A stretch of DNA of 51,375 nt, from NCBI GenBank assembly GCA_020852965.1, contig JADYZV010000086.1, positions 1 to 51,375 of the forward strand, read 5' to 3'. Positions 9,790 through 51,375 of this stretch are shown in pieces. The notes below the pieces were generated by a model. That model did no database searches and was not told the origin of the DNA. It was given only the letters and a program-made list of their open reading frames with translations. Each line of letters starts with the position of its first letter. Position 1 is the first letter of the stretch. Both the position numbers and the translations under genes were made by a program. The stretch is from Pirellulaceae bacterium. Lineage in GTDB: Bacteria; Planctomycetota; Planctomycetia; Pirellulales; Pirellulaceae.

Positions 9790-10160
9790 TACGACGCCGT
9801 AATCATGCTGGTAGTTTCGAAATGGCTACGATACAAACGCAGCTAGAAAATAAAGGTTCAGCAAGCAGTGGCGGAGTAGAGGCATACCCCACCCTGTTCT
9901 ATTGACTTTCCAAAGTAGTAACATTACGAAATCTACACTGTAGCTTTCGTGGCGACAAATGTGATCCGTAATCCTTACGGAGGAGAGGACAGGATTATCA
10001 CAACGCAACAAAGTTACATCAAGGTTGAGCGATCCAGCCATAGTGGGCGTCGAGTCAAACTTGTAATAATTCCGGGTGACAGGGAGTCATCGTTCGAGGG
10101 CGTTCCGTGGGAAGGCTGAATCGATGTCGCCCCGGCAACTTTTCATCGGAGTTCATTATT

Positions 10161-32000: not shown

Positions 32001-32406
32001 CTATCCCACCACCAACCTCTCAACGCCGCTCGTCGACAGCATGGACTGCCGCGTGGTCTATCCCGATGTCGACCCACGTGGTCTACCGCCAGCTACGATC
32101 GACGAAGCCAGTCCTTATTCTACGGAACCGATCCCAACGAACCCCTCTGCCCTGCCAACTAGCCCGGAAGTTGTCCCGGTTCCCAGCGGACAATCTGGGA
32201 GAATACCCAAGCAGCCAAGTGTCCCGCTGGCAGTGATGGATCTTCCCACCGTGCCGCAATCTCTGGCCTCGCAGTTTGACTCTACTTCTCCCGTGGTTAC
32301 GGCCAGTGCTAGTTCACCGATTGCGACCAATCCAACTACGACCAATGCTAGAACCCTAGCGCCACCCTCTGCCTCTTCGCAACCAACGATCGGAGGTGCT
32401 CGATGA
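29056..32406 (+). CDS. gspD: Type II secretion system secretin GspD, enlarged
   Basis: A 1116-residue outer-membrane secretin. Signal peptide about 1-24 (ends CADA/Q). Residues about 205-660 hold roughly six secretin N-type modules (each ending in a pattern like LNIVEALVIRLDE), more than the three or four ring domains of a typical GspD. The secretin channel domain follows (about 660-955), with VGQRVPRIVNSTIN and the closing VPWLGDIPVIKHLF...RTELLIIMTPHVVRS. A tail of about 160 residues rich in Pro, Ser and Thr is added. AAGGAG lies 7 bp before the ATG. The stop overlaps the start of the lipoprotein gene (ATGA). It forms the outer-membrane exit pore of the T2SS encoded on the opposite strand. 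Confidence 0.93.
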   Translation: MRNYNFAVLIAALWLLPIVRCADAQAPLQAPANQRREVVVPSHQMEQIRAQLRGVLDGNVRFDPANPARMEVQTDSGMAVVEFLPNEGRLLVDGTARATADIARLIALLSQPTSVGAMRALPLNDNGQASLLQSSLLEGSRQGASTPFGLPSFSASGGNALTPGRLTAAQQEGIPAAGGQANGQTDDQPETSGDEQAPLPLQPFEGVQVEMLPEIDAIILRGRDQQLQDLAEIIKRLDEASLQAQPIIEIIPLEHTAADSVSTLIAQIQTGLISTRQGRATVTPLNKPNALLVIGWGEALNVVKELIGKLDVPVQADTQFAIRQLRHARATEVQIQLRSFFQTRGGLSPTIQSTVDSRTNAIIIHAAPRDLQEILALLDQLDVPRGEAMQHARVFEIQHSLASDIAQSLQTALAASATGNQVSLQLVDQDGNPLATSGVLGTSQITVNDRNNTLIISSAPENLDLIEQLIEQLDTPGMVAKIKIFPIENGDAGDMVQMLRSLIPSQAPGTTGSPMLSSSPDEASLVPLRFTVDGRGNNIIAVGSEGDLNIVEALVIRLDESDTMQRKSTVYQLKNSPAVDVALAVNEFLRSKRSVENVAGQSSNPFAQIEKEVVVVPEPVQNKLILSATPRYYEEVSRLIEQLDQQPPQVMIQILIAEITLGNTDEFGVELGLQNSVLFDRSLLGDLLTRTNTTNTTTPGGGIVTSTVQDIVSATNVPGFEFNNTNPLGNSGSANALRGGGQVGGQGISNFAVGRGNETAGFGGLVLSASSENVSFLLRALQETRRLEILSRPQILTLDNQQAFIQVGQRVPRIVNSTINQNGAQNSVALENVGLIIGVTPRISPENNVVMEIDAEKSKIGPENEGIPVSISADGTVIRSPRIDTITAQATVSAADGETIILGGLISRSTQTIHRQVPWLGDIPVIKHLFSYDYFDLKRTELLIIMTPHVVRSVGDMEQLKQAEFARMSWCEADVFALHGDVYPTTNLSTPLVDSMDCRVVYPDVDPRGLPPATIDEASPYSTEPIPTNPSALPTSPEVVPVPSGQSGRIPKQPSVPLAVMDLPTVPQSLASQFDSTSPVVTASASSPIATNPTTTNARTLAPPSASSQPTIGGAR

Positions 32407-33476
32407 TTGTCTACCCGTTAAATGCCGGCTACAGATTGGCGCTACCGCTTGTCTGTTTCTTGGCCTTGTTGCTGAGCAGCGGCTGCCAATTCACTCCCAA
32501 CACGACGAAAATGCGATGGCCGTGGACTAAAGAAAAGCCAAACCCACAACCTGACCGTGTCGTGGCCGTGTGGACGGATACCGTTTTGCATCAAACTGGG
32601 CAAGCGGGTGTGCGCGGCTTTGGTGGGCGAGTCTACTTCTATGCACAAGACAAAACCGACCCCATCGAGGTCGATGGTGGCTTAGCGATCTACGTCTTTG
32701 ATGCCGATAAATTGCAGGCGCATGACCAGCGTCCGCTGCGCAAATTCGTGTTCACCGCCGAGCAATTCGCGACACACATGAGTCGTACGTCGCTCGGTCC
32801 CTCGTATAGTGTTTGGCTCCCTTGGGGTGAAGTCGGCGGTCCACCGCTCCGCTTGAGCCTGATCACCCGTTACGAAGGGACCGCCAGTGGCACCACGATC
32901 TCAGAACCGACGATCAAACTCCTGCCCGGTGTACCGGCTCGCAGCATTGAGTCCGAGCAAGAGCTCGCCAAGCAACGCAGTGGCTCGTCGGTTCAGCTCG
33001 TCGGCCATACCGCACCCGTCGACACTACGGAACGAGAGGATCAGGAAAACGACAACGACGCCGACAACCCGTCAGTGCGCACTCTCGATCGTACTTCGCC
33101 GCGGTTGCAGCGAATCAAGACCATCGATCTCCCCCCCAGTTTCCAACGTCACTTTCAGCGATCCGGTGGAGCCAACCAAGGTGGTGACGATTTGCCGGGA
33201 GGCGAGGCGGGGGATTCTGCCACACCAGCCAGCGGTTCCACCAGTTCAAGAGAGGCACCCGCTGATGGTCCATCAGCCGCACTGACGACGGTTGACTCGA
33301 AGGCACTGCAAGCGCTGGCCGCCGCAGAAGCGGAGGCTCCCGTGACAACGCAGGTGATCGATCATCGAACTCGGATGCAGCAGCGGTTTCATGGAAGCCA
33401 GTTGTCGGGCACTTCGCCGCTCGATATTCGCGAAGGTAGGTGGATCGAATCGCTACCACGCATCGGTCGGCAGTAA
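32403..33476 (+). CDS. Lipoprotein coupled to gspD (hypothetical)
   Basis: A 357-residue protein with signal sequence and lipobox LLSSGC (Cys28). A folded domain of about 130 residues follows (VVAVWTDTVLHQTGQAGVRGFGGRVYFY ... PLRLSLITRYEG), then a Ser/Pro/acidic low-complexity C-terminus ending LPRIGRQ. ATG 32403 overlaps the gspD stop by four bases, so translation is coupled. No known family was recognised. Position and lipidation make it a candidate pilotin or secretin-associated factor, but it is much larger than known pilotins; this is inference. Confidence 0.75.
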   Translation: MIVYPLNAGYRLALPLVCFLALLLSSGCQFTPNTTKMRWPWTKEKPNPQPDRVVAVWTDTVLHQTGQAGVRGFGGRVYFYAQDKTDPIEVDGGLAIYVFDADKLQAHDQRPLRKFVFTAEQFATHMSRTSLGPSYSVWLPWGEVGGPPLRLSLITRYEGTASGTTISEPTIKLLPGVPARSIESEQELAKQRSGSSVQLVGHTAPVDTTEREDQENDNDADNPSVRTLDRTSPRLQRIKTIDLPPSFQRHFQRSGGANQGGDDLPGGEAGDSATPASGSTSSREAPADGPSAALTTVDSKALQALAAAEAEAPVTTQVIDHRTRMQQRFHGSQLSGTSPLDIREGRWIESLPRIGRQ

Positions 33477-36959: not shown

Positions 36960-38786
36960 CTACCGCAGTGCGGGCGCGAAGCTCTCAACGGGAAAGCCGC
37001 GATCCCAGGCATGCCAGACTTGATAATCAACGATTTGGGCGGGGCGCTGACGAGCGTCAATTACGGCCGTGCAGCGGTATACGGGACTGACCGCGTCGCG
37101 ATAGCCTACGGCTTGCGTTCGGTAGACATCGCTGCGACAGGTGAGGTAGGGTTCCAACTGCTTCAATCGAGCCAAGTCGACTAGACCCTCGGACAACAAC
37201 CAAACAATCGAGCTACGCGGTGAGGGGGTCGCCGCGCTGGCTGCAACGCTAGGCATCGAACGCTGCTGCACAATTTGCTCAGCCAGCTGCTGATCCATAC
37301 CAGGTACGCTTGCCAAAACTTCCAGCCGAGCGTGTCGAATATCAACCCGCCCCACAAGGCTCGTAGCCAGCTCAACAGTCGACTCGTCGAGCAACCTTTC
37401 ATTGTAATTGCTACCCTCTGTCGTCGCACTCGAAAAAGGCGAGCTGAGTAAACGTTTTTTGGCAATCGCGCTAGCACTAGTGGCGGGCGACGCACCACCG
37501 CCCGCGCCCGTTGTTGCCGAGCTCTCGTCCGGAACCGAAACGCTCACGTCCACCAAATCTAGCACACTGGCCAGACGATAGCTCGATGGCCGGCTAAAGT
37601 CAGGGGTCCAAGCTCCAGCAGTCATGGCTGTAGAGGACGCACTCGCTCCGGTTGTCCCCATACTGGAGCTAGCGCTCGCACTGCTATCTGCGCCCGAACT
37701 GGCTGCGGCGATAGGCTGTCCGGGACCGTATTGCCGCATCGCTATAACAAAATCTGCGAACTCGGTCGGCCAGATCGACAAGAGCTGACGATGTAGCTCC
37801 AACAGATCGTCGTCGTTGAGATAAATTCGTGGCTGCCCGGCGACGCTCTCATTGCGCTGACCGCTAACCCAGCTCAGATAACGCTGCCAAGCCACCGGTG
37901 CGATCAAATCTGATGACGATGAACCGGTAAGTGACATCGCGCCGCTCGCACTACCGGACGCTCCGCCGGAAGTGTCTTCGCGCAGCGACTCTGCTAAAGC
38001 CAGTTCGAGCGCATCGAGTTGATAGTTTTGATTGAAATCGCCACCGAGCCATTGCAGTCGAAACCAGTCTTGCGAGTCGCGTTGATCTGAGGACGATGTG
38101 CCCGATTGCAGGCGATCCATTAAGCGACTTTCGCCCGACAGGCCGCCGCTGGTGGATACCCCTTGACTGCGTAACCAGTCATCGACCGGGCCGGCCTCCG
38201 CCTGTGGCAAACGCATCAATGCGGATCGTGCGTGGCCAGGGAATTGCCGCTCCCACTTCAAAAGCGTCGGCACGTGTAATTTCGCCGACTCGTTTTCCAA
38301 ACCAAATCGCAATCCCTTGAGGACTTGCCCAACCTCACTATTGCCAGCACTTCCGGTCGTTGCTGCGAGTGGACTTTGCGACTCGTCGCTTCCGACTGAA
38401 GCTGTCACAAGGCTCACGTGCCATGGTTCTAGCGAACTATCTTGCTGCGTTGTCGTCTGAGTCGACGCCAGCTCGGCACTGACGCTAATGTGCTGGAACA
38501 TCGTCGGATTGAAGCCGAGTCCTCCCATAGCATCTCGCTGCTCAATTGAGTTTTCGAGAATTGCTGCCGCGAGCTCAAGTCCGCTGAGGGCTGCCAGGCG
38601 AGCCTGCACTTGTTCCTCGTGAAGTCGAGTTACGCGATACTCGGCTTGCATCGTGAACGAGTACCGGTAGGCACCCAAGGCGATCAACATCGTGAGCACC
38701 ATCACCACTAATAGCGCCATCGCACGTCGAGATCGGCGGCCAGGCGTAGTCCTAGTTGGTGAGTTCAATTTCACCAGACTATTCAT
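36960..38786 (-). CDS. gspK: Type II secretion minor pseudopilin GspK, enlarged
   Basis: A 608-residue protein with a prepilin-type N-terminus (RRAMALLVVMVLTMLIALGAY, no Glu at +5, as usual for GspK) and the GspK globular domain, including QVQARLAALSGLELAAAILEN and a late helical part with RLEVLASVPGMDQQLAEQIVQQR. It is almost twice the length of classical GspK (about 330) because of several Ser/Ala/Gly-rich insertions (about 270-300 and 360-400). It probably sits at the tip of the pseudopilus with GspI and GspJ. Its ATG shares a base with the gspJ stop (TGATG), so it is coupled. Confidence 0.87.
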   Translation of the reverse strand: MNSLVKLNSPTRTTPGRRSRRAMALLVVMVLTMLIALGAYRYSFTMQAEYRVTRLHEEQVQARLAALSGLELAAAILENSIEQRDAMGGLGFNPTMFQHISVSAELASTQTTTQQDSSLEPWHVSLVTASVGSDESQSPLAATTGSAGNSEVGQVLKGLRFGLENESAKLHVPTLLKWERQFPGHARSALMRLPQAEAGPVDDWLRSQGVSTSGGLSGESRLMDRLQSGTSSSDQRDSQDWFRLQWLGGDFNQNYQLDALELALAESLREDTSGGASGSASGAMSLTGSSSSDLIAPVAWQRYLSWVSGQRNESVAGQPRIYLNDDDLLELHRQLLSIWPTEFADFVIAMRQYGPGQPIAAASSGADSSASASSSMGTTGASASSTAMTAGAWTPDFSRPSSYRLASVLDLVDVSVSVPDESSATTGAGGGASPATSASAIAKKRLLSSPFSSATTEGSNYNERLLDESTVELATSLVGRVDIRHARLEVLASVPGMDQQLAEQIVQQRSMPSVAASAATPSPRSSIVWLLSEGLVDLARLKQLEPYLTCRSDVYRTQAVGYRDAVSPVYRCTAVIDARQRPAQIVDYQVWHAWDRGFPVESFAPALR

Positions 38787-40027
38787 CAGAAGCCACCTCG
38801 CAGTCGACTCGACGGAATATCGGTCGAGCTTAGTGGAGTGGCAAACTCAGAGTTGCCAGTTGAATCCATCGATGCAGGCGCGTTTGCGTCACCCAAGGGG
38901 CCTGTCGTCCGTGCAGTCCGTCCAGCGACCAGGATAACCATTTGAACTTCGAATTGATCCGACTCCATTAGACTTGCGTCCGGGTCGGTTTCCAATTCCG
39001 CTTGGGCTTCCCCAGCCAGCGCCAGATCCGCCGCCGACAACTCAGTCGATGCTTGAAGTTCGAACTCCGCCTCGTCCTCCCAGGCCTCACGCGCCCTACG
39101 CGGTTGGGGCGGTTGCATTTGCGCTCGAGCGGGAAAGTCAAAACGCAGCGCAATAGCCGCAGGTAACCCACCGTCGGAGCGACTATTCCAACTGTCTTTC
39201 CAAGAGACTCCATCGCAGTATTGAAACTGTGGTCGTATCAAGCCTTCCAATCGTGATTGCGCGATAGGTATACCGCGCAATTGCTGCCGATCATCGTTCT
39301 GGCGGTAGAGGTCCTGGCCGGTCAACACTCGATCGCTGGGAGAGAGCTCCGAATCAAAGCCGATCGCATCGCCTTGTACCGTAGATTGCATGCTCGATGA
39401 CTGTGCGCTCGGCGACTGTGAGCCACCGATCAATTCTCGGCGCACCATCATGAACTGAATCTCATCGAGCTCGCTAGTTACTGCTGGTCGAGTTGTCTCT
39501 GTAGAATCGATGGGACGCGCGATATTGACGGGAAGCAATTCGTACTCGATCTGAACCTGTTCTGGGCTCCACGGTGAAGCGTCGGAAAGCGTTCCACTCA
39601 GCTCACTATCCATGGACGAAAGCGCTCCCGACAATGGCGAAGGATTTGCAGCCAGCCCCTGAGCGCTTCGAGCGGTTGCATTGCGCGAGTCAAACTCATC
39701 CGAGGCTGACGAATCGGAGAGTAGTCGTTCGAGAAACGGCAGTGGGTCGAGCGAGGGCGCAATGGTGGCAGAGAATCCGCGACTATTGCCAGTGAAAAGA
39801 AATTCATCGGAGGGTCCAAGCATCGCTTGAGCATCGCTTTGCAACCAAGCGTGTGCAGCGCGAATAATTTGCGTGCGACGCGTGATCTTCCAACCTCGTT
39901 CTTCGGAATCGCGAAACGTGGCCATCAACGACCAGGCTACGCTCATCAGTGCGCCTAACAAGCCCAACGCAATCATCAATTCGAGCAGCGTGTAGGCGCG
40001 TCGCGATTTTGAATTGGATGGTTGCAT
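38786..40027 (-). CDS. gspJ: Type II secretion minor pseudopilin GspJ, enlarged
   Basis: A 413-residue protein. The leader ends at Ala11, cleavage before YTLLELMIALGLLGALM with Glu at +5. The downstream region has the GspJ-like pattern of charged residues after the helix (RDSEERGWKITRRTQIIRAAHAWLQSD) and late EGLIRPQFQYCDGVSWKDSW and AAIALRFDF strands. It is roughly double the usual 200-230 residues, again through Ser/acidic low-complexity insertions. It is a minor pseudopilin of the T2SS pseudopilus tip. A 583-bp gap containing a palindromic element separates it from the upstream gspI. Confidence 0.87.
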   Translation of the reverse strand: MQPSNSKSRRAYTLLELMIALGLLGALMSVAWSLMATFRDSEERGWKITRRTQIIRAAHAWLQSDAQAMLGPSDEFLFTGNSRGFSATIAPSLDPLPFLERLLSDSSASDEFDSRNATARSAQGLAANPSPLSGALSSMDSELSGTLSDASPWSPEQVQIEYELLPVNIARPIDSTETTRPAVTSELDEIQFMMVRRELIGGSQSPSAQSSSMQSTVQGDAIGFDSELSPSDRVLTGQDLYRQNDDRQQLRGIPIAQSRLEGLIRPQFQYCDGVSWKDSWNSRSDGGLPAAIALRFDFPARAQMQPPQPRRAREAWEDEAEFELQASTELSAADLALAGEAQAELETDPDASLMESDQFEVQMVILVAGRTARTTGPLGDANAPASMDSTGNSEFATPLSSTDIPSSRLRGGF

Positions 40028-40266
40028 AATGGGAAATACTAAAATTTTTTATGGCTGATGGTTTTGTGCATCCATGCAGTAGTCCATACGAGTGTTCTGT
40101 CCAACGTCTGATGCTAAGTTCACGGCTCGAAGTCAATTTGGTCTGTTCAACCGCGCCAGCGCGCCCGCCAAAGTGACGAGTCAACTTGCGGTGCCCATTG
40201 GGGCGACCAGCGGTGCCGCTGGGGCTGTCTTCTCGATCTCAATTCACCATGCGGGCGCGCTGCGCG

Positions 40267-40506
40267 GTTAAACCCGGATTATTCATAACCCGCAGCGTCA
40301 GCAAGGACGTTTGAGTCAGAGTCGAAAGTTAAAAGCATGAATTACCTTGGATTTTCGCAACCCACTTGCAGTTGCGTCGAACGTCCTTGCTGACGCTGCG
40401 GGTTACGATTGCATAGCAGACTGTGTTTTGCTCGTATGACGTAAACCTATTCGCTATCATCGCTTACTTCGTTTTCTCGCAGACTCATGAATAATCCGGG
40501 TTAAAC
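40267..40506. mobile_element. 240-bp palindromic element with nested inverted repeats
   Basis: Outer arms 40267-40286 and 40487-40506 (GTTAAACCCGGATTATTCAT versus its complement) match at 19 of 20 positions. Immediately inside, 40286-40310 and 40381-40405 are a perfect 25-bp inverted repeat around CGCAGCGTCAGCAAGGACGT. The right half recurs at 877-995 and the outer ends recur at 2951-3032. It sits in the gspI-gspJ gap (40028-40610), which holds no other recognisable gene. Confidence 0.75.
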
Positions 40507-40610
40507 AGTCGATCGCCTCGACCTGAATCTCACGCCGCCGAAGAGCCTGCTTCCTAGCGGGTCGGTTGGGCATACTAGCGGACGCTACTCATACACGGAT
40601 GCTTGTCAAT

Positions 40611-41336
40611 TTATGGGATACCTGTGGTAGGGGGAACGCGCACGAGCTGCGAAAGCTGACACAAAACGCGAGTGTCATCGCTCATTTCCTGTTCCGCCGA
40701 TTCGAAGACCTCCACCGTTACCACTACCAATCGACTTGGCAACGGCGGAGCAGATTGATCGGAATTTGGCTGGCTTGCAGTAGGATAGTTACTGGTAGCG
40801 CTATTCATCTGAGGCGGTGAGGAGGCTGCGAGCGAACGGTTTGCACCGGAGTCGGCTCCATCGATTCCGCCCAATGCAGCGTCCTCCATGCGAATGCGGA
40901 ATGCGCGAGGCGGGTTGGAATTGAGAATCCCTGTCCGCTCTTCTTCACGCTCCGATGGTTCGCCAGGGAGTGCCAAAAACTCCGCTAGCAACGATTCGGC
41001 ATCCGATAGCGCTTCCGTCCGAGCTTCTGCACGGCTGCCAAACTTGGTCCCCAAGCCGAGTAAAGAACTGAGCACCATGGCACTCGAAGCCAGGATCGCG
41101 GTAGCCAGGATCACTTCTAATAATGAAAATCCGCGTCTTGTGATCGGGGAGTGACCGAAGCGATCTGTCGGAAAGCGACGCGGAGCGTCGGGCCACATTA
41201 AATACGGACGCGGAGCGTCGGGCCACATTAAATACGGACGCGGAGCGTCGGGCCACATTAAGTAGCGACGCGGAGCGTCGAGCCACATTGAACGCCGATG
41301 CGGAGCGTCGGGCCACATTGGGGGAACACGGTTCAT
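40611..41336 (-). CDS. gspI: Type II secretion minor pseudopilin GspI with repeat-expanded leader
   Basis: A 241-residue frame whose ATG (41334-41336) overlaps the gspH stop as ATGA, the normal coupled arrangement. The prepilin site RRG/FSLLEVILATAILASSAMVLSS (cleavage after residue 69, Glu at +5) is followed by the GspI helix and an enlarged globular part. The first 50 residues are five near-identical decapeptides (MWPDAPRPYL type) encoded by a 30-bp DNA repeat. Each unit supplies its own ATG; initiation at the last one (41198) would give a normal 23-residue leader. Whether the 69-residue or the 23-residue leader is used cannot be told from sequence. Confidence 0.85.
   Translation of the reverse strand: MNRVPPMWPDAPHRRSMWLDAPRRYLMWPDAPRPYLMWPDAPRPYLMWPDAPRRFPTDRFGHSPITRRGFSLLEVILATAILASSAMVLSSLLGLGTKFGSRAEARTEALSDAESLLAEFLALPGEPSEREEERTGILNSNPPRAFRIRMEDAALGGIDGADSGANRSLAASSPPQMNSATSNYPTASQPNSDQSAPPLPSRLVVVTVEVFESAEQEMSDDTRVLCQLSQLVRVPPTTGIP
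41177..41326. repeat. Five tandem 30-bp repeats inside the gspI leader region
   Basis: Units begin at 41177, 41207, 41237, 41267 and 41297, each with GACGCGGAGCGTCGGGCCAC (minor changes in units 4 and 5). The core CGACGCGGAGCGTCG is a palindrome with a GGA loop, so the RNA of each unit can form a small hairpin. Two further units lie at 42187-42244. The repeats are in frame with gspI. Confidence 0.9.
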
Positions 41337-42091
41337 CGCGAGATCTCCAGTGCACCGGTGGCAGCCGAGTAGGTAACGTACAGTCGCTGGTCGATGGACG
41401 CGTCGAATAACTCGATGGAGGCGTCACGGCCACGCCCCTCGGCGGTCAATGGCAACCACCATTGCCGACTGGTCGCGGGATCGAATTCGTTGGCATTGGT
41501 AGTCGGATCCAAAGCAGTGTCGGCTGCATACTCACGCTCGGTTTCATACTCATCGGAATCGAACGGAATTTGATCGTCCACGCCAGAGGGTATGATGCTC
41601 TCCAACGTCCAATCGACGTTGGAGATCACGACCGGCGGTGGCAATTGCCAAGTGCGAAGCGTTTGTGTTCGTACCGCTGTTGAGCGCTCAGCACCAAGGC
41701 CAGACGAATTGGCGGAATCGGTTCCAGGATAACTCGATGAGGCAGCTTGTGGAGTGGTGGCACCGTCGGAAAGTGCAGCCGGCAAACTCGCCGAAATGTC
41801 GGAGTTGCTATTGAGAAAACCATCGAAGCTGCCGCTGCGCAGTTGACTACTCCCCTGCTGCAACTGAACGAATTGAACCGCTCCATGCAGGGCGGCTTGA
41901 TAGCGACTTTCGTCAATTGCATCGCGCACCATCTGCGCCGCCTCGTCAAGCGAGGTGCGTTGTAGCGGGCGTTGTAGATTGGGCCACACTACGGCTAACA
42001 CGCCGACCATTAGCAACAACACGATCACTAGTTCCAACAACGTGAAGGCACGCGATTTAGGAAGGACGGTTCGGTTTGTTGAGGGGTACAT
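41333..42091 (-). CDS. gspH: Type II secretion minor pseudopilin GspH
   Basis: A 252-residue protein. The leader MYPSTNRTVLPKSRA is cut before FTLLELVIVLLLMVGVLAVVWP (Glu at +5). GspH-like features follow: EAAQMVRDAIDESRYQAALHGAVQFVQLQ, then a Ser-rich insertion and a late beta region (RDASIELFDASIDQRLYVTYS) that ends LEISR. It is longer than the usual 150-170 residues. Its stop overlaps the gspI start by four bases. The 169-bp gap to gspG upstream is filled with short repeats. Confidence 0.85.
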   Translation of the reverse strand: MYPSTNRTVLPKSRAFTLLELVIVLLLMVGVLAVVWPNLQRPLQRTSLDEAAQMVRDAIDESRYQAALHGAVQFVQLQQGSSQLRSGSFDGFLNSNSDISASLPAALSDGATTPQAASSSYPGTDSANSSGLGAERSTAVRTQTLRTWQLPPPVVISNVDWTLESIIPSGVDDQIPFDSDEYETEREYAADTALDPTTNANEFDPATSRQWWLPLTAEGRGRDASIELFDASIDQRLYVTYSAATGALEISR

Positions 42092-42260: not shown

Positions 42261-42806
42261 TTAGGCTTCGATCTCACGGGATGCTGCGTCGGGGTCTTCT
42301 TCTTCTCCTGCAGCAGGCTGATTGCCGATATCATCGCTGGTGCCAGTTTGGCGATCGGGACCAATCGAAAAGATACGCGGGAAGTCGATTGAATTCTCTT
42401 CGGTTTCCCCTTCCGTAACGCCGTATTCGTACTCAAATGGGCTCCCCCAAGGGTCGATCGGCAATTTGCCTCCTTCGATGTACGGTCCGTCCCAGTTGCG
42501 GGCTAGGCCTTCGTCCTCAGGAGCCTTGACCAACATTTCGAGTCCTTCTTCGGTCGAAGGAAAGACCTTCATGTCCGCTGCATACATTTTTAGAGCCGAG
42601 GCGAGATTGCCAACTTGAGCTTGGGCCGTGCGCACGTCCGCCTTCTGTTGGGTTCCCAACAATCGCGGACCGACGATGGCCATTAAACCAACTAGGATGA
42701 TCAACACGATCATCAACTCTAACAAGGTTAAACCGCGTCGCAGTTTACGCAGGGAATGCTTAGCCACTCCGGCTTGATTGGTACGTCGCGTTGTGTTTTG
42801 ACGCAT
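42261..42806 (-). CDS. gspG: Type II secretion major pseudopilin GspG
   Basis: A 181-residue protein. The leader ends RRG before LTLLELMIVLIILVGLMAIVGPRLLG (Glu at +5). The GspG core is conserved: QKADVRTAQAQVGNLASALKMYAADMKVFPSTEEGLEMLV, then WDGPYIEGGKLPIDPWGSPFEYEY and IFSIGPDRQTGTSDDIGN, the calcium-binding loop region typical of GspG. About 20 acidic residues extend the C-terminus (AAGEEEDPDAASREIEA). AGGAGA at about 42813-42818 supports the ATG. It is the main building block of the pseudopilus; gspF lies 24 bp upstream. Confidence 0.95.
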   Translation of the reverse strand: MRQNTTRRTNQAGVAKHSLRKLRRGLTLLELMIVLIILVGLMAIVGPRLLGTQQKADVRTAQAQVGNLASALKMYAADMKVFPSTEEGLEMLVKAPEDEGLARNWDGPYIEGGKLPIDPWGSPFEYEYGVTEGETEENSIDFPRIFSIGPDRQTGTSDDIGNQPAAGEEEDPDAASREIEA

Positions 42807-42830: not shown

Positions 42831-44051
42831 TTATCCGACGGACGAATTGAGGTCAAACACCGGCAGCAGTACGCCCAGGATCACAAACATGACCATGCTA
42901 CCGATGAGTATGAGCATTAGCGGTTCGATCAATTTTACTAAAACTTCCAAGCGCCGTTCGATACGATTGTCGATACGGTCGGCGATCTTGACCAGAACTT
43001 CATCGAGTGAATTGGATTCCTCGGCCACGCGAATCATGGCCATGATCTGCGGTGGAATGAGGCCGCTGGCTGACAAAGGCTTGGAAAGGCTATCCCCAGC
43101 GGTGACATTTTCTGCCGATTTCAACATGGCCTCTTCCAGTAGTCGATTGCCGGTTGAGCCACTGCTGATCTTTAGCGACTTGAGCAGCGGTACCCCGTTG
43201 CGGAGCAGCGTTCCCAACACGCGACAGGCGCGCGACACGGCGGCGTCGTGAAAGATCGAACCGAGCAAGGGAGCTTTGAGCTTGAGTTGGTCGAGTCCTC
43301 GTTTGCCAGAGTCGCTGCTGAGCAACTTTCGCACGCCGAATCCGATGGCGACCAACGCACCTAGCACGAGGAGCCCGTAATGCATGAGCGTATGACTGGC
43401 GCCCAGCAGCAAGATCGTAACTAGAGGAAGTCCGGTCCCGTTTTGTTCCAAGCGATCAAAAAAGGGTTGGAATTTAGGAACCAGAAAGACGATCATCAGC
43501 GAGGTGATGATAGTCCCGACGATCCCCAGTATCACCGGGTAGGTTAACGCCCCGACGATCTTGCCTCGCATTTCATCTTGTTTGCGCAGGAACATTGCCG
43601 TGCGTTGTAGGGCTTCTTCCAGGAAGGCTCCCTCTTGGCCAGCGCGTACCATGCTGAGTGTCAGTTCGGAGAAAATCGACGACTCACGCGACATCGCTTC
43701 GTCCAAACTTTGCCCCTGCGAAACCGCTTCGTGAATCCGTAGAGTGGTTTCCTGCAAGCGTGGATTGTCCATGGCGTCGCCGAGAATCTTGATCGATTCC
43801 AGCATGGGCACGCCGTTGGTCAAAAGATCCGCCAGTTGCGTGCAGAAGTCGGCAATTTGCTCCTTCTTCACGCGAACTGGCAGCGAGACATTGGCCCAGT
43901 TCGATGCGTTTGCTTGCGGATCGACCAGGCTCATTGGAAACAGCGACTGCGATCGCAGCCTCCGCATCGCTTCGGCTCGATTGGCGGCGGCAATAGTGCC
44001 TGTTCGACGTTCTCCGCTTGCCGATTTGGCCGTGTAGGTAAAGTCAGTCAT
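42831..44051 (-). CDS. gspF: Type II secretion inner-membrane platform protein GspF
   Basis: A 406-residue protein of normal length with two repeated T2SSF domains and three TM helices (about residues 170-195, 220-245 and 375-400). Family motifs are present: SGERRTGTIAAANRAEAMRRLR at the N-terminus, FCTQLADLLTNGVPMLESI, and CRVLGTLLRNGVPLLKSLKISSGSTGN in the second repeat. It couples the GspE ATPase to pseudopilus assembly. It lies between gspE (42 bp upstream) and gspG (24 bp downstream) in the same operon. Confidence 0.95.
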   Translation of the reverse strand: MTDFTYTAKSASGERRTGTIAAANRAEAMRRLRSQSLFPMSLVDPQANASNWANVSLPVRVKKEQIADFCTQLADLLTNGVPMLESIKILGDAMDNPRLQETTLRIHEAVSQGQSLDEAMSRESSIFSELTLSMVRAGQEGAFLEEALQRTAMFLRKQDEMRGKIVGALTYPVILGIVGTIITSLMIVFLVPKFQPFFDRLEQNGTGLPLVTILLLGASHTLMHYGLLVLGALVAIGFGVRKLLSSDSGKRGLDQLKLKAPLLGSIFHDAAVSRACRVLGTLLRNGVPLLKSLKISSGSTGNRLLEEAMLKSAENVTAGDSLSKPLSASGLIPPQIMAMIRVAEESNSLDEVLVKIADRIDNRIERRLEVLVKLIEPLMLILIGSMVMFVILGVLLPVFDLNSSVG

Positions 44052-44093: not shown

Positions 44094-45785
44094 CTAATCC
44101 GCCTTGGTGACTCGCATAACTTCAGCAAGCGTGGTAACACCCGAGAGCACTTTGCTCCAGCCGTCCATCCGCAGGGTCTCCATCCCGCCCTTGATGGCAG
44201 CCTTCTTGATGACATCCGAGCTAGCTCCTTGCGACGCGAGCTGACGGACCTCTTCGTTGGTCACCAGCAATTCGTATATTCCCATCCGGCCACGATAGCC
44301 GGTGCGTCGGCAGCATTCACATCCGCCCGGGCGATACAGTTTCAAGCGTGGATCGAGCCGCGCTTCGACAGGGAAATCGTCGGGCAATTCATCGGGATCG
44401 GGACGATACGACTCTTTGCACTCGTCGCACAACACACGCACTAGGCGTTGAGCCAAAACGCCTTCGACGGTGTTGGCGACCAAAAATGGTTCGACCCCCA
44501 TGTCGATTAAACGCATGAACGCTCCAGACGAATCATTCGTGTGCAACGTGCTAAACACCATGTGCCCAGTCAGCGAGGCTTGGGTCGCGTTTTCCGCAGT
44601 TTCCAAGTCGCGGATTTCACCGATCAGTACCACATCGGGATCGTGCCGCAAGATGGCTCGCAGACATGCCGCAAACGTCAAGCCGACTTTTGCGTGGACT
44701 TGGATTTGATTGATTCCCTCAAGCTGATACTCGATGGGGTCTTCGGTGGTGACGATCTTGTTGTCTTCCGACTTGATCTCACTCAAGGCACTGTAGAGCG
44801 TGGTGGTCTTACCGGAGCCGGTGGGACCGGTCACCAACACGATGCCGTGCGGCAAGCGAATCAGCTTTTGAAACTTCTCGTAGATTGACTCTGGCATGCC
44901 GACGCCGCGCAAATCAAACTTCAAGTTCGATTTGTCGAGTACCCGCATGACGACACCTTCGCCGTGCAACATGGGGATGATCGACACACGCACATCGATT
45001 TCACGCCCCGAGATTCGCAGCTTAATACGACCATCCTGCGGAACACGCTTCTCTGCGATATTCATCTTGGCCATGATCTTCAAACGGCTGATGATCGCAG
45101 CTCGGAATTGATTCATCTCGGGCGGAGTCGGCTGCTTCTGCAAGACACCATCGATGCGATAGCGGATTTTCAAGCCGCTCTCCTGCGATTCGATGTGAAT
45201 ATCGCTGGCACGAACTTCGATGGCCTCACTCAGGATCTCGTTCACCAGCCGTACCACGGAGGCTTGCTGAGCCTCTTCGGCATCTTCTAAGCCCTGCGTG
45301 TCGAGCTCTTCGAGCATTTCTACGTCGCCCAGTTGCCTTTGCTGAGCGATCAAGCCGTCGATCGTCTCGGAGCCAACGCCCAAGTTTCGCTTGATCAAGC
45401 GCTGTATCGTTTCAACCGAAGCAACCACCGGGCGCACCTCGACTGCCAACGCCGACGCGACCGAGTCGACCGCCGCAAAGTCAAACGGGTTGCTAACGGC
45501 CAACCGAATCCAGCCTGGTCCACGCTCTAGTGGAAAGACTTCATGCCGGTGAATCAGCTTCATCGGAAAACCGGCAAGCGCATCACTGGGAATCTCACCC
45601 TCATCAGTGTCGAGCCATTCGAGCCCCAGAGTTCTCGCACTGACGGCGAGTAGTTCTTGCGAATTGTTGAAAGACCAGCGGTCGACCAATAGCTCCAACG
45701 AATCACCATCTTTGAGCATGTCGGCCACTTGACGCAATTGGCTCGAATCGAGCTGCGGCAATAGCGCTAGCGTATTAGTAATCAT
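44094..45785 (-). CDS. gspE: Type II secretion ATPase GspE
   Basis: A 563-residue cytoplasmic hexameric ATPase. The N-terminal GspE_N-type domain (about 1-150) is followed by the RecA-like core: VRASDIHIESQESGLKIRYRIDGVL, Walker A GPTGSGKTTTLYSALSEI, the Asp box around TTEDPIEY, Walker B DPDVVLIGEIRDLETA and the His box HMVFSTLHTN. Zinc-type cysteines are CDECKESY and CECCRRTGYRGR, the GspE metal-binding loop. ATG 45785 is chosen because AAGGAATT lies about 10 bp upstream; the longer frame to 45965 is not credible. It powers pseudopilus assembly and is the first gene of the E-to-BON operon. Confidence 0.95.
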   Translation of the reverse strand: MITNTLALLPQLDSSQLRQVADMLKDGDSLELLVDRWSFNNSQELLAVSARTLGLEWLDTDEGEIPSDALAGFPMKLIHRHEVFPLERGPGWIRLAVSNPFDFAAVDSVASALAVEVRPVVASVETIQRLIKRNLGVGSETIDGLIAQQRQLGDVEMLEELDTQGLEDAEEAQQASVVRLVNEILSEAIEVRASDIHIESQESGLKIRYRIDGVLQKQPTPPEMNQFRAAIISRLKIMAKMNIAEKRVPQDGRIKLRISGREIDVRVSIIPMLHGEGVVMRVLDKSNLKFDLRGVGMPESIYEKFQKLIRLPHGIVLVTGPTGSGKTTTLYSALSEIKSEDNKIVTTEDPIEYQLEGINQIQVHAKVGLTFAACLRAILRHDPDVVLIGEIRDLETAENATQASLTGHMVFSTLHTNDSSGAFMRLIDMGVEPFLVANTVEGVLAQRLVRVLCDECKESYRPDPDELPDDFPVEARLDPRLKLYRPGGCECCRRTGYRGRMGIYELLVTNEEVRQLASQGASSDVIKKAAIKGGMETLRMDGWSKVLSGVTTLAEVMRVTKAD

Positions 45786-46423
45786 TGTTGAATTCCTTAA
45801 TCGTCGAGGTGGGAGCTCGCTCCGCGAGCTAAGGGGGGAGGTTGGGGTGGTTCGACTCCGACAACAATAAGTTGCCGAATGTTCGAAGCCGAGTTTTGCG
45901 AATTCGTCGCCGAATTTCGCAGAAACAAACGTCAGGAAGCTGTCAAAGCCGTCCCTGTAACCCAAGGAAGGTCTATGTCAGCCGATCGTCGGTCTATTCC
46001 AAGTCGTCGAGGTAGGTAGTTCAGGTGGGAATTTAAGGTGGGTACGAGCCATCCTGCTCGTTTTCATTATTTCATTATAACTCGCCATGTCCGCGAGCAT
46101 CTAACTCTTTTAACTCGACACGTTGGCATCGAGTGTGCAATCCGTTTAGTATTTTTCTTTGGCAGGTTCTAGTGTACTACTCTAAATGGTAGCAGCAATC
46201 TCCCGGCACGTCAATTTGGGGGAACTGTACTGACACGTGGTCTGTTCGGGCCAGTTTTCGGGTATCGCAGGCCAATTTTCGGGTGTTGGGCGCGGCGGCA
46301 AGTCCCAACGTACCACGAACGCGGGGACTCGTAACCTCGTCCACTGCACCGGGCTCGTGGGCGACGGCACACCCATTGTGCCTGCTATTTTTCAGCAATT
46401 TACTCGATTTCAATGAGTTTTCG
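45786..46423. other. Intergenic region between gspE and the giant N-domain gene
   Basis: About 640 bp with no convincing gene. It should hold the promoter of the gspE operon. Visible structures are a palindrome AGCTCGCTCCGCGAGCT at 45814-45830, a near-tandem 21-bp duplication GGGCCAGTTTTCGGG/GGCCAATTTTCGGG at 46248-46289, and the dispersed repeat at 46324-46346. Confidence 0.6.
46324..46346 (+). repeat. Dispersed repeat, GGACTCG family (copy 4)
   Basis: Contains GGACTCGTAACCTCGTCCAC followed by TGC, about 80 bp after the stop codon of the giant gene. It matches the copies at 24, 4005 and 17375. Confidence 0.75.
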
Positions 46424-49400
46424 TCATTTTGCCAGCAAAATCTTCAACGCTTGCTGCAGACTCTTGGTATTGGTCGATTGCAAACGGATGAGATCCACCC
46501 GTTTGGAGGGTGTTTGCTGTGACTTTCGGTCAAGTGATTCGACGAACTCACGAATCTCAGCGGTCAGCTCAATGGGAGCGCGAAAAATGATCGAATTGCT
46601 GGTCTCATCGACGGCCAAGGTCAATAGCGGACCGCTTGATTGGGCATTGAGCTGCTGCAATAAACTCGCCACATCGGAAGAAACCCCCTCGGGAATCGGG
46701 ACCGGACGACGACCAGCCCCGGAGCTCAATTGGGAACGATAGACATCGCGCAATATGGCTTCCACGTTATTGGCGCTAGCACTTTCAAGCGCGAGAGTCG
46801 TGGGCGTGATCTGTTGTAGAGAATCGAGTAGATCCTCCGAATCGAGCACGCCCAACAACTCTTCCACGGTGCGCCTATCCTGGCGATTACCGCTGACGAT
46901 CAGAGCGTTGATCCGCGAGTCGGCCACAATTTTGACGCGTTGCATCAGGTCGGAAACGGACGAGCTGCGACCGCGTTCTGGACGGAACAAATCGCTGAGC
47001 AACTCCTGAACTTGATCAGCTCCAGCGTGGCGAAGCAGATAGACGGAGTAATTGCCGGTCGTGGAGTACGGCTCGATCCGAGGGCTCAATAGGGTATCTA
47101 GCAAACGTTGGAATTGGTCGAGCGCCTGGGTATCCGCCGATGCCACCGTCCACTGCTCGTCCCCCACGACGACGACGATTGCCGGACGATTGGCTTGGTT
47201 GTCAGTCGCCTTGAGACCAGCCGAGTCGTCAGCGGCCTCAGAGGGGACAGCCGTCGAGCTCTCATCGGATATCTTGTCGCCTGAGCTGGCCGCTTCATCT
47301 GCAGTGTTCGTATCGACAGGGTTGGCCTGCGGTGCGCTAGTCAGTTTAGCAGTTGGCATTTCCTCCTCTAGCGCGTCTGTGCCGTCGTTCTTCTCACTGC
47401 GCGTTTCCTTATCCTTCTCGTTTTTCGTGTCGTTGGGGTTACCTGCTGGACGGATGACTTCCAGCACGTTGTCACCGGCGGCCGGCCAGAGGCGTCGGAT
47501 CTCATCTAACAATTTCTCTGAATTGCGGTGTACTGGAATAAATCGCAGCCTAGCTGAACTACCAATGCGGCTACCCGACGGCGTTTCCCCCATCTGCTGC
47601 AATAGCTTACGCAACGAAACGAGCTGAGTGTCTGTTGCGCGAATGATCACGCGTTGTTGGTCGCTGTCAATTGAAATGGAAGGGGCTGAGTTGACGGGCT
47701 CATCCTCGAATAGCGCATCGGCAGCCAACTTGAACGAGTAGGGGTCGGTCGCTTCGAGCTGAACAATCTCTAGTTGCCGTTCTGGAGGAGTCAATTGTTC
47801 GAGCATCTCCTCGACCAATTTTATCTGCTCCGGATCGCCCACCACAAACAACTGTTCGTTCAGCGGATCGTAGCGCACGTCGACTGGTGCGGAGCTCTCC
47901 GGAAACAGGTTCTCGATTGCGCTGGAGATCGATCGCCCATCTGCGCCTCCCAGTGAGAAGACGCGCATTTTACGAGAGTCGCTGTTGCTGCCTAGCACAT
48001 CGATCTGTTCCACGAGCGCCTGGGCTACTTGCAGGTCGTCTCGGCTGCCGACGACGAACACGCTTCGCGTCTCACGGTTGAAGCTAACTCCAGCCAAAGA
48101 GCGCCGACCGAAGGCATCTTCGAGTGCACCCGCTACGGCCTCTGGACTGGCATGTTTTAAAGTGAACGACTTGAGCGTTGGCAATCGAGTCGGTTGCGAG
48201 TTAAGTTCTTCGATGACCTTGGCCAGCTCAGCGTGCTCTTCTTCGGTAGCCGTTGCAAATAGACCGCCACCAGCCGAGTCGGCAGCAAATGTGGCTTTGG
48301 CAAAGCTCCCTTCCAAGGCGCGCGAAAGTGCGATTGGCTCACTGCCGAGCACAGGATAGAAGCGAGTCGAGCGAGGCTCACTTCCTCCCTTCTCCACTTG
48401 GTCGACAATCTCGCCGATTTGCTCGAGCTCTTCAGGAGTTGCAGTCACAATCAGACTGTTGGATGCTCGATCTGCCGTGACAGATGCCTCCGAGGAAATA
48501 TTCGCAATGGCATCCTGCAGCGAAACCGCGTCGCCGTTACCAACGACAAAGACCCGCGTCTTTACGTTTTCACGTTCGTTATCGAACTCCTTTACGATAG
48601 CCGCGATGCGTTCATGTTGTTCCGGTTGGGCGGTAGCGATTAAGCCACCGGTCTCACGTGAGCCGTAGAAGGTTGCATCGGGCATGAGGCTCTGCAATAC
48701 GAAAGACAGACCTCGTCCGTCGCCGCGCTGCAATCGATAGACGTGCGTCTCCTTATCGTTACCTCCTTTTTTCACCTGGTCGACAATCTCACCGATTTGC
48801 TTGAGTTCCTCAGGGGTTGCAGTGACAATTAGGCTGTCGGTCGCCTGATCGGCGGTGACGGCCGCTTCTGTCGAGAAACTCTTGATGGCTACTTGCAGCG
48901 AAGCTGCGCTCCCTTTGCCGACGACGAAGACTTGCGTTTTTACGTTCTCACGATCGTTATCGAACTCTTTGACGATAGCCGCGATGCGCTCATGTTGTTC
49001 TGGCAGGGCCGTGGCTACTAAGCCGCCCGAATCGGGCGATCCGTAGAACGTTGCATCGGGCATGAGGCTTGACAGTACGTAGGACAAGCCACGCCCGTTG
49101 CCACGTAGCAAACGGTAGACATGCGTCTCCTTGTCATTTACCGTCGGCTGATCGAAGCCTGTCAAGAACTCGGTGATCGCTTTGTGATCTTCGGCTTTAG
49201 CCGTGGCCGAAATTGTTTTTGAGGCCACATCGGGGGCCAGGGTCGATTGCGGCAAAAGCCGAGCCAGCACCGTCACGGCCGCTTGCGGATTGGCATGACG
49301 CAGCGGATAGACAACCGAGCTCATCGTATCGGGTGAAGGCATCTGCTCGATCAGCCGCTGCACTTGCTCACTCACACGTTCCAAGTCCTCCGCCGATCCG

Positions 49401-51375
49401 ATGGCCAACAGCGTGTGATTGGCCGGGTTAGACTCCAAGCGAACCTGCGCCGGAATCGTCGATTTGAGCGCGACCAGGATGTTGCTCAGCTCGACTTGCT
49501 TCGGATCGAACGTAAAGACCTTGGTCGTAGCCTCATCGGCGCCCGCACCGTTGGAGAGCATTTCGACCACGCTGGCGATACGCGATTGAACGTCTTGTGA
49601 CGCGACAACGACCAATTGCCCCGTCGTCGGATCGGACGTGCTGACTGCGGCAGGAAACAGGGTGCGCAGCGAGGTTTGGATGGCCAGCAACTGTGTCGGC
49701 TTGACCATGTAGGTAGCCGGCTGTTGCGCGTCACGAGCCGTCTGGCTGAGAGCCGCTAAGGCCTGCTCTACCAATTCCTGTTGCGGCGGTGTGGCCCAAA
49801 CTGTCACCGTGCGTGAAACGGGATCAGGGCTGAGCAATGCGCGGGGAGCGAGCTGTTTGAGCAGGCTCGAGAGCGTTGACATCTCGCCAAACGGCACCGG
49901 GTAGGTCTTCGCCAATTGCGCTTCGCTACCTCCTTTTTCCACCTGGTCGACGATTTTGCCGATTTGCTCGAGTTGTTCGGGGGTTGCAGTCACAATCAGA
50001 CTGTTGGTCGCTCGATCTGCGGTGACCGATGCTTCTGCCGAGACGTCTTTGATGGCGACTTGCAGGGAAGCTGCATCCCCGTTGCCGATAGCGTAGACAC
50101 GCGTCTGCCTGCCGTCAGCCGTCGGCTGATCGAAGCCTGTCAAGAACTCGGCGATCGCTTTGTGATCTTCGGCTTTAGCCGTGGCCGATATCGTCTTTGA
50201 GGCCACATCGGGGGCCAGGGTCGATTGTGGCAAAAGCCGAGCCAGCACCGTCACGGCCGCGAGCGGATTGGCATGACGCAGCGGATAGACAACCGAGCTC
50301 ATCGTATCGGGTGAAGGCATCTGCTCGATCAGCCGCTGCACTTGCTCACTCACGCGTTCTAAGTCCTCCGCCGTTCCGATGGCCAACAGCGTGTGATTGG
50401 CCGGGTTGGACTCCAAGCGAACCTGCGCCGGAATCGTCGATTTGAGCGCGACCAGGATGTTGCTCAGCTCGACTTGCTTCGGATCAAACGCAAAGACTTT
50501 GGTCGTAGCCTCATCGGCGCCCGCGCCGTTGGAGAGCATTTCGACCACGCTGGCGATACGCGATTGAACGTCTTGTGACGCGACTACGACCAATTGCCCC
50601 GTCGTCGGATCGGACGTGCTGACTGCGGCAGGAAACAGGGTGCGCAGCGAGGTTTGGATGGCCAGCAACTGCGTTGGCTTGACCATGTAAGTAGCCGGCT
50701 GTTGCGCGTCACGTGCTGTCTGATTGAGCGCCTCCAAGGCTTGCTCCACCAGTTCTTGTTGCGGCGGTGTGGCCCAGACTGTCACCGTGCGCGAAACGGG
50801 GTCTGAACTGATCAACGCGCGCGGGGCGAGCTGCTTGAGCACGCTAGGCAGCGTTGACATCTCGCCAAACGGAACCGAGTACGTTTTAGCCAACTGCGCA
50901 TCACCACCTGGGGCCGACGTCAACTGCTCAAAGGCTGCTTCAAGCTGTTCATGCTCCTCGGGGGTGCCCGATGCGACCACTTGATTGGAAACACCATCGA
51001 CGGTCAATTGCATGCTTGGCCACATGGCTTGCAGCGTGGTTAGCAGTGCCGAAGCGGTGAGCTGGCCTGCATCATAGCTGCGGATCTCGGCTACCTGGCG
51101 CACGCTTCCTGTGCGATCGATTTGATCGATGGCCGCTTTGACTTGAGCTTGAGTTTCCAACGAGCCGGTCACGACCACCTGCCGCAATTTGTCATCGGCC
51201 AACACGGTCGCATCGCGTACAATCTGATCGAGCAGCAGTTTGACATTCGTCGCCGCCGCGTGCTCGAGCGGATAGGCGAGCACCACCTTCTGGCGGCCTG
51301 CTGCCGGTTTGGCACCCAGGGCCGTTGCCATTTGGTGCAGCTCAGCGTGGGTCTCAGCGTCAGCGCGAACCAGCA
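46424..51375 (-). CDS. Giant secretin N-domain repeat protein (5' end outside window)
   Basis: An open frame of about 1,650 codons with no start required before the window edge; the frame continues past 51331 (ADAETHAELHQ), so the gene is partial. It consists of about 22 modules of 60-70 residues, each ending in a pattern such as TPEEHEQLEAAFEQL or TPEELEQIGEIVDQVEKG, which is the secretin N-type alpha-beta ring domain. No secretin channel domain (VPxx...GDIPxxxxLF) is present; the protein ends inside a module (TKSLQQALKILLAK). One acidic linker interrupts the array (about 47330-47470). Nearby modules are near-identical copies. By location beside the T2SS it may form or line a periplasmic conduit; this is inference. 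Confidence 0.82.
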   Translation of the reverse strand, partial: LVRADAETHAELHQMATALGAKPAAGRQKVVLAYPLEHAAATNVKLLLDQIVRDATVLADDKLRQVVVTGSLETQAQVKAAIDQIDRTGSVRQVAEIRSYDAGQLTASALLTTLQAMWPSMQLTVDGVSNQVVASGTPEEHEQLEAAFEQLTSAPGGDAQLAKTYSVPFGEMSTLPSVLKQLAPRALISSDPVSRTVTVWATPPQQELVEQALEALNQTARDAQQPATYMVKPTQLLAIQTSLRTLFPAAVSTSDPTTGQLVVVASQDVQSRIASVVEMLSNGAGADEATTKVFAFDPKQVELSNILVALKSTIPAQVRLESNPANHTLLAIGTAEDLERVSEQVQRLIEQMPSPDTMSSVVYPLRHANPLAAVTVLARLLPQSTLAPDVASKTISATAKAEDHKAIAEFLTGFDQPTADGRQTRVYAIGNGDAASLQVAIKDVSAEASVTADRATNSLIVTATPEQLEQIGKIVDQVEKGGSEAQLAKTYPVPFGEMSTLSSLLKQLAPRALLSPDPVSRTVTVWATPPQQELVEQALAALSQTARDAQQPATYMVKPTQLLAIQTSLRTLFPAAVSTSDPTTGQLVVVASQDVQSRIASVVEMLSNGAGADEATTKVFTFDPKQVELSNILVALKSTIPAQVRLESNPANHTLLAIGSAEDLERVSEQVQRLIEQMPSPDTMSSVVYPLRHANPQAAVTVLARLLPQSTLAPDVASKTISATAKAEDHKAITEFLTGFDQPTVNDKETHVYRLLRGNGRGLSYVLSSLMPDATFYGSPDSGGLVATALPEQHERIAAIVKEFDNDRENVKTQVFVVGKGSAASLQVAIKSFSTEAAVTADQATDSLIVTATPEELKQIGEIVDQVKKGGNDKETHVYRLQRGDGRGLSFVLQSLMPDATFYGSRETGGLIATAQPEQHERIAAIVKEFDNERENVKTRVFVVGNGDAVSLQDAIANISSEASVTADRASNSLIVTATPEELEQIGEIVDQVEKGGSEPRSTRFYPVLGSEPIALSRALEGSFAKATFAADSAGGGLFATATEEEHAELAKVIEELNSQPTRLPTLKSFTLKHASPEAVAGALEDAFGRRSLAGVSFNRETRSVFVVGSRDDLQVAQALVEQIDVLGSNSDSRKMRVFSLGGADGRSISSAIENLFPESSAPVDVRYDPLNEQLFVVGDPEQIKLVEEMLEQLTPPERQLEIVQLEATDPYSFKLAADALFEDEPVNSAPSISIDSDQQRVIIRATDTQLVSLRKLLQQMGETPSGSRIGSSARLRFIPVHRNSEKLLDEIRRLWPAAGDNVLEVIRPAGNPNDTKNEKDKETRSEKNDGTDALEEEMPTAKLTSAPQANPVDTNTADEAASSGDKISDESSTAVPSEAADDSAGLKATDNQANRPAIVVVVGDEQWTVASADTQALDQFQRLLDTLLSPRIEPYSTTGNYSVYLLRHAGADQVQELLSDLFRPERGRSSSVSDLMQRVKIVADSRINALIVSGNRQDRRTVEELLGVLDSEDLLDSLQQITPTTLALESASANNVEAILRDVYRSQLSSGAGRRPVPIPEGVSSDVASLLQQLNAQSSGPLLTLAVDETSNSIIFRAPIELTAEIREFVESLDRKSQQTPSKRVDLIRLQSTNTKSLQQALKILLAK
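49137..49920. repeat. Internal long repeat of the giant gene, copy B
   Basis: About 780 bp that matches 50115-50898 at a fixed offset of 978 bp (326 codons), with only scattered substitutions. It encodes four consecutive modules (FGEMSTLSSLLKQL to FLTGFDQPT). Confidence 0.9.
50115..50898. repeat. Internal long repeat of the giant gene, copy A
   Basis: Partner of 49137-49920. Between the two copies, 49921-50114 encodes one additional module whose own near-copies occur again around 48390-48560 and 48760-48930. Confidence 0.9.

Follow-up and report, generated by a model that had tools for sequence, protein, structure and literature searches.

A giant planctomycete protein of tandem secretin N-modules without a pore, encoded in a type II secretion locus

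In GspD, the secretin of the type II secretion system (T2SS), the usual few N-modules and the pore domain belong to one protein, with the N0 domain sitting at the inner-membrane T2SS platform. A related fold is found in PrgH and PrgK, the ring-building motif proteins of the type III secretion system (T3SS) basal body, which form rings and have no pore. The PilQ secretin of Thermus thermophilus is reported to have six N rings, with which, according to its authors, it bridges the greater part of a wide periplasm (PMC5745081), and the N-domain of XcpQ is reported to self-assemble on its own into a hexamer of dimers (PMC5646246).

Here, we describe a planctomycete gene whose product shares with GspD the N0–N1 order, an N2-/N3-like end, the β-α-β-β-α fold of its modules and a position of the gene before gspE, while differing from it in lacking a pore domain, in having about 29 to at least 49 N-module matches instead of the usual few, and in leaving the pore to another protein that itself has no detectable N0. 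Unlike this giant protein, PrgH and PrgK have few modules, are anchored in the inner membrane and are not known to be encoded beside gspE. PilQ resembles it in its enlarged stack of N rings, but unites the pore with all six of these rings in a single protein of 757 residues (PMC5745081). The XcpQ case is similar in that a secretin N region without the C-domain self-assembles, and different in that it concerns an engineered fragment rather than a natural poreless gene (PMC5646246). Among the matches listed for open-licence PMC papers, none reported a giant or split planctomycete secretin in its title or in the start of its abstract.

Architecture of the giant protein

The window, i.e., the whole stretch of 51,375 nucleotides under analysis, is an entire contig (C86) of the source genome, a Pirellulaceae bacterium (G000). 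On its reverse strand, the ORF at 46424..51373 has no stop before the contig end, and the gene runs off the window with its 5′ end cut, leaving the C-terminal 1649 aa of a protein of about 2368 aa. The 5′ part of the gene is the terminal open ORF of contig C141 of the same assembly (L050 9928-12165, forward strand): the 3′ end of that contig and the end of the window have 84 bp in common, exact and in frame (window 51292..51375, reverse strand; L050 12083-12166). This join is supported by relatives with the gene on one contig, which have both parts in the same order, for example the 2157-aa protein of G024 and the 1930-aa protein of G006. Extending the contig in this manner adds further modules, N0–N1 and the start of the protein, which is hydrophobic and signal-peptide-like by eye, with a hydropathy not above our own cut-off of 1.8, and is followed by a short helical region and then by N0 and N1. 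The full protein is strongly negative, with a net charge of −95.

An initial annotation, made from the letters of the window, had read its ORF as consisting almost only of secretin N-modules, about 22 in number, with no channel domain, and the profile searches bear this out. The Pfam Secretin_N family (PF03958) matches the ORF with an E-value of 1.1e-120 and 394.4 bits, exceeding the gathering score of 28.2 bits, in 17 significant stretches across the 1649 aa. Our own module profile, which was trained on the modules of this family and on which the module counts depend, recovers 21 modules at ≥5 bits in the window part; adding one module that is split by an acidic insert, the figure of about 22 is correct. 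We excluded a chance or low-complexity origin of the modules by a shuffled control, which yielded one match at ≥5 bits in 616,300 residues (20 shuffles of each searched protein). The joined protein has 29 module matches at ≥5 bits by the same profile, and since these include N1 and the N2-like and N3-like modules, the array proper amounts to about 26 modules plus the split one.

Together, the profile and fold matches give the domain order N0–N1, array, N2/N3-like modules and terminal half module. In the N-terminal half, positions 2-158 of the TIGR02517 (GspD) model match residues 115-272 (E = 1.8e-11), which places N0–N1 there. The Pfam N0 model (PF21305) gives a match below its cut-off in this half (E = 0.0035) and is found at E ≤ 0.1 in 17 of 46 relatives. 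The TIGR02517 equivalog cut-off of 351 bits is missed by the window part (253.8 bits) and the N-terminal half (43.3 bits), and likewise by the pore secretin of the window itself (339.0 bits). The window part of the array, all of it on the reverse strand, includes a run of 19 consecutive N-modules spaced by about 61-72 aa (47585..51277). Next comes the module that we read as split by an acidic low-complexity insert (47087..47548, with the insert at about 47198-47443 and modelled at a pLDDT under 50), followed by an N2-like module (46838..47056), whose best sequence match in the PDB is the N2 domain of a GspD (5wq7, E = 3.7e-22), and an N3-like module with a mid-module loop (46520..46801), into which a match to 6hcg extends. 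The protein closes with a strand–helix half module (46427..46498), the conserved end of the family. A cryptic C-terminal pore was considered and rejected: the ORF ends in N-modules, the pore family PF00263 is absent among the families matching it at E ≤ 1, and the model of the C-terminal part has no barrel. Nor did any giant ORF appear among the PF00263 matches in its own genome or in 17 other giant-bearing genomes.

AlphaFold2 predicted tandem β-α-β-β-α modules both for the C-terminal 890 aa of the window protein (pLDDT 75.4, pTM 0.32) and for the N-terminal 767 aa of the relative L062 (pLDDT 82.0, pTM 0.31); in these monomer models, single modules are confident and the arrangement between modules is without confidence. 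A Foldseek search of the C-terminal model against the PDB gave 26 matches at E ≤ 0.001: 21 to secretins of the T2SS or of type IV pili, and five to chains of the Salmonella SPI-1 injectisome that the result table does not identify further. All 21 matches of the L062 model at this threshold are GspD-type or related secretins, including 3ezj (E = 1.1e-7). The TM-scores are low for both models, and what is matched is therefore the modules, not the whole arrangement. The predicted fold is that of secretin N-modules and not an unrelated one.

The window protein also carries an internal duplication, with two 817-bp copies that are 92% identical (50093..50909 and 49115..49931, reverse strand); together with an identity peak at a lag of five modules, this points to a recent block expansion. 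The identity peak lies at a lag that depends on the lineage: 2/4 for the longest arrays, 3 for other ones and 5 for the window protein. We therefore dropped the idea of a fixed repeat unit, and the expansion looks like independent block duplication.

Genomic context and phyletic spread

The giant gene lies upstream of gspE in a T2SS locus that has a separate secretin, as had been noted at the outset. The longest ORF of gspE, coding for the T2SSE ATPase, spans 44094..45965 on the reverse strand (PF00437, E = 2.0e-138), with a likely ATG near 45785 that corresponds to the start in relatives. On the same strand follow an ORF that we take to be gspF from family knowledge and synteny (42831..44051), gspG (42261..42806; T2SSG, E = 8.5e-27) and three pseudopilin-like genes (38786..42091), two with N_methyl matches under the cut-off and one with a match over it and a weak T2SSJ match. 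Beyond these are a gspK-like gene (36960..38786; HHH and T2SSK, both below cut-off), a gene without a family match that is called gspL-like by position alone (35163-36938), and a gspM-like gene that co-occurs with the giant (34252-35166; GspM, E = 0.025, far below cut-off). A GspC HR domain seen by eye at the C-terminus of the gspM-like protein was discarded, being without support from PDB or Pfam profiles. The operon order is thus giant–gspE–gspF–gspG–pseudopilins–K–L–M-like, with the secretin and lipoprotein genes beyond it on the opposite strand. The pore secretin (29056..32406, forward strand; 1116 aa) has six Secretin_N domains and a Secretin domain and shows no match to the N0 profile of the giants. 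Adjoining it is a conserved partner gene for a predicted lipoprotein (32403..33476, forward strand), with a lipobox-like SGCQF recognized by eye; we dropped GspC as an identity for this product, which reads as a lipoprotein. A BON-domain-like protein (33530-34231, reverse strand; E = 8.6e-6, just under cut-off) ends the T2SS operon, and homologues of it are found near two other pore secretins (L044 and L051).

The association with T2SS genes recurs in relatives. Downstream DNA sufficed for a test in 33 giant loci; gspE occurs at most 4.5 kb downstream of the giant in 18 of them, and at most 700 bp away in 12 of these 18. Three of the 15 loci without gspE in this range have a pore secretin upstream, and the remaining 12 have neither in the stretches examined, which extend upstream by 1 bp to 9.8 kb and in three of the 12 by under 5.3 kb. 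A pore secretin is found upstream in 6 of 34 giant loci with at least 7.5 kb of upstream DNA. In six further giants, gspE is the next gene downstream in L171, L172 and L175, and is absent there in L173, L174 (with a downstream stretch under 1 kb) and L178; L171 has the order secretin–lipoprotein–giant–gspE–gspF on one strand. An ortholog of the gspM-like gene is present in all 10 giant-bearing genomes (E ≤ 7.6e-21) and in 3 of 30 others (E ≤ 1e-20), a count that is uncorrected for kinship and uses an E-value cut chosen after the values were seen, with G018 exactly at the cut. A genome counts as giant-bearing here if it has an ORF longer than 1600 aa, and G007 was included on the basis of two pieces at contig ends; G014, with a 93-aa fragment only, was counted among the 30, and in G006 the gspM-like gene is on a different contig from the giant.

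Scanning one genome per species with an N0–N1 profile, we obtained 143 relatives and analysed the 80 best. By name, 79 of these 80 are planctomycetes and one is labelled only "bacterium"; two MAGs titled Fuerstiella are among the carriers of a giant. Our own pore-domain profile matched none of the 80; 27 of them are cut before the 3′ end, so the count is 0 of 53 for those complete there. At least 12 modules are present in 54 of the 80, and 36 of the 54 are closed at both ends, with 12-33 modules; the closed ORF with 12 modules, L102, represents a broken frame. With 48 module matches in 3749 aa, G021 has the longest array among closed ORFs, and open ORFs reach at least 49 modules (L113 and L135). 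Intact ORFs have 16 modules or more, and the overall range extends to at least 49. Some members have long Pro-rich stretches before N0, such as (PE)n and PAEPK-like repeats (L128, L094, L135 and L089).

In a tree of the N0–N1 region, all 55 giants (≥12 modules, window included) fall into one clade of 63 rows with a support of 100/99. The closed non-giants inside this clade, L078 (followed by the array ORFs Narray7 and Narray9) and L084 (401 aa, followed by Narray8), look like broken frames because array ORFs follow them. In L078, L084 and L102 the giant frame is split over several ORFs, by assembly frameshifts or by real decay. The N0–N1 profile is matched by 144 of 393 genomes sampled across the phylum; in the class of the window, our count of the listed rows gives 91 of 99 genomes, and the ORFs listed are mostly shorter homologues. 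A giant is also present in G133, a genome placed outside this class, for which contamination is given as 6. The giant gene is under purifying selection: dN/dS is 0.056-0.155 in seven of nine pairs (one of the seven with a dS of 2.8, near saturation), dS being not computable in the other two, and on this basis we rejected a pseudogene.

Distribution of N0 and the pore between two proteins

We then ran the giants' N0 profile on each protein alone; a version confined to the columns present in the window secretin gave the same picture. The 13 pore-secretin rows (12 distinct, as G007sec lies within L059sec) show no match or E ≥ 3.1. All 10 small poreless homologues match at E ≤ 9.8e-41, the poreless paralogs encoded on contigs C26 and C39 of the source genome at 2.3e-26 and 6.4e-17, and all four fused proteins examined (see below) at E ≤ 1.4e-13. 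In a shorter secretin of the source genome (C100), N0 is matched faintly where it would be expected (hhalign 0.0038, hmmsearch 0.15). N1 separates the two groups less cleanly than N0, with pore secretins matching up to an E-value of 0.0012, as any N-module may. A separate secretin frame of 1116-1434 aa (E ≤ 2.8e-40) is found in 16 of 17 giant-bearing genomes; no pore secretin of this class was found in G133, which is 91% complete.

A sister family (f22) displays the two parts in one chain. All 10 of its listed genomes match the N0–N1 profile, and each of the eight examined (all but G345 and G378) has one ORF of 2135-2331 aa combining N0–N1 with PF00263. In these eight, the fusion is recorded as PF00263 in a frame of the same length on the same contig, and four of them (L167-L170, 2138-2321 aa) were studied as sequences. 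A Gly/Pro-rich linker, about 240 aa long in L167, joins their poreless and pore halves: along the L167 chain, the poreless family aligns with residues 108-963 (E = 9.3e-85) and the pore secretins with residues 1204-2114 (E = 6e-138). No gspE was found near the four fused proteins in the stretches examined.

The poreless half of the fused proteins ends in the same strand–helix half module as the giants, in which it was recognized in 37 of 43 tails by profile and in the other six by eye. By eye, 12 small poreless proteins also end in it, most of them with Gly-rich tails resembling the f22 linker. Completion of the half module in trans by the pore secretin is possible and not required, because pore secretins seem, in our reading, to have a strand–helix of their own before the strand–strand–helix.

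With N0–N1 on the giant, N0 undetectable on the pore secretins and the two fused in a sister family, the giant looks like one half of a split secretin. The split of N0, the fused form and the separate pore secretin make up the strongest argument that the two proteins probably work as one. The fused form renders a partnership of giant and pore secretin a concrete and testable prediction. Taken together, the observations suggest that the secretin, regarded as a single protein, can be split over two genes.

Proposed role, alternatives and paralogs

We favor, with a probability of roughly 60%, the reading that the giant is the periplasmic, inner-membrane-facing half of a split T2SS secretin (GspD). 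The original reading as a secretin-N array thus stands in the N nature of the modules, the lack of a pore, the link to the T2SS and its recurrence, and needs amendment in that the protein is not simply a set of extra rings and carries an N0–N1 docking end. Once exported into the periplasm, the protein would have its N0 end at the inner-membrane T2SS platform, its C-terminal end would face the N-domains of the outer-membrane pore secretin, and the amplified modules would set the reach between both membranes. Most likely, the modules would assemble laterally into stacked rings and extend the channel for the pseudopilus and the substrates; in a weaker version, they would be a tether of the same reach. 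Such an arrangement suggests how a secretion machine could keep two membranes connected despite a greatly enlarged periplasm.

A more specific proposal, less likely than not, is a two-part planctomycete secretin in which the giant would form a tube across the periplasm, made of some 30 to 50 rings stacked on one another and, at about 3 nm per ring, of the order of 100 nm long; module duplication would adapt this length to the enlarged periplasm, and the dangling half module might complete or dock on an N-module of the pore secretin. Rings are plausible because the N-domain of XcpQ self-assembles in isolation (PMC5646246) and because PilQ, by virtue of its six N rings, can span most of a wide periplasm (PMC5745081). 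The planctomycete periplasm is described as capable of being greatly enlarged, and crateriform complexes as appearing to hold the cell membrane near the wall (PMC5394234); a place for the giant in the crateriform complexes is speculation. A module range from 16 to at least 49 is not what one would expect of a rigid tube with a fixed reach, unless envelopes vary. Provided that rings form, comparing the number of modules with the width of the periplasm would offer a natural experiment on length setting.

Alternatively, the giant might be a flexible tether or scaffold, with single chains linking the inner and outer T2SS parts like beads on a string, without rings. We consider this rather doubtful: confident modules with no confident arrangement (pLDDT 82.0 and 75.4, pTM 0.31 and 0.32), the drift of array length through block duplication and the Pro/Ala-rich stretches before N0 in some members are all consistent with it, but the spacing of the window array is steady near 61-72 aa, an unmodelled oligomer would also give a low pTM, and the N-fold is a ring-forming fold in secretins, with the XcpQ N-domain reported to form a hexamer of dimers alone (PMC5646246). 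Improbable is a substrate-holding brush, a multivalent periplasmic surface gathering T2SS substrates or glycans before export, for which one could invoke the many similar modules and the net charge of −95, whereas nothing in the analyses run, none of them specific for binding sites, indicates a binding site, and the fusion of N0–N1 with a pore points to a channel role. An adhesin or envelope fibre unrelated to export, with a co-opted secretin N region that merely neighbors T2SS genes, would account for the 12 of 33 testable loci with neither gspE downstream nor a pore secretin upstream in the stretches examined, but is highly improbable in view of the recurrent gspE adjacency (18 of 33 loci), the presence of the gspM-like gene in 10 of 10 giant-bearing genomes against 3 of 30 others, and the fused form in the sister family.

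Besides the split secretin half that we favor for the giant, the source genome codes for other poreless N0-bearing proteins. None of the small poreless homologues scanned adjoins T2SS genes; the C26 paralog does. It is a homologue of 1229 aa in a second T2SS-like operon (L052 6369-16785), and in the listed ORFs its end abuts the gspE frame at 10058. Contig C39 (L053 7112-10279) encodes the third poreless protein with an N0 in this genome, which has 1055 aa and five Secretin_N stretches.
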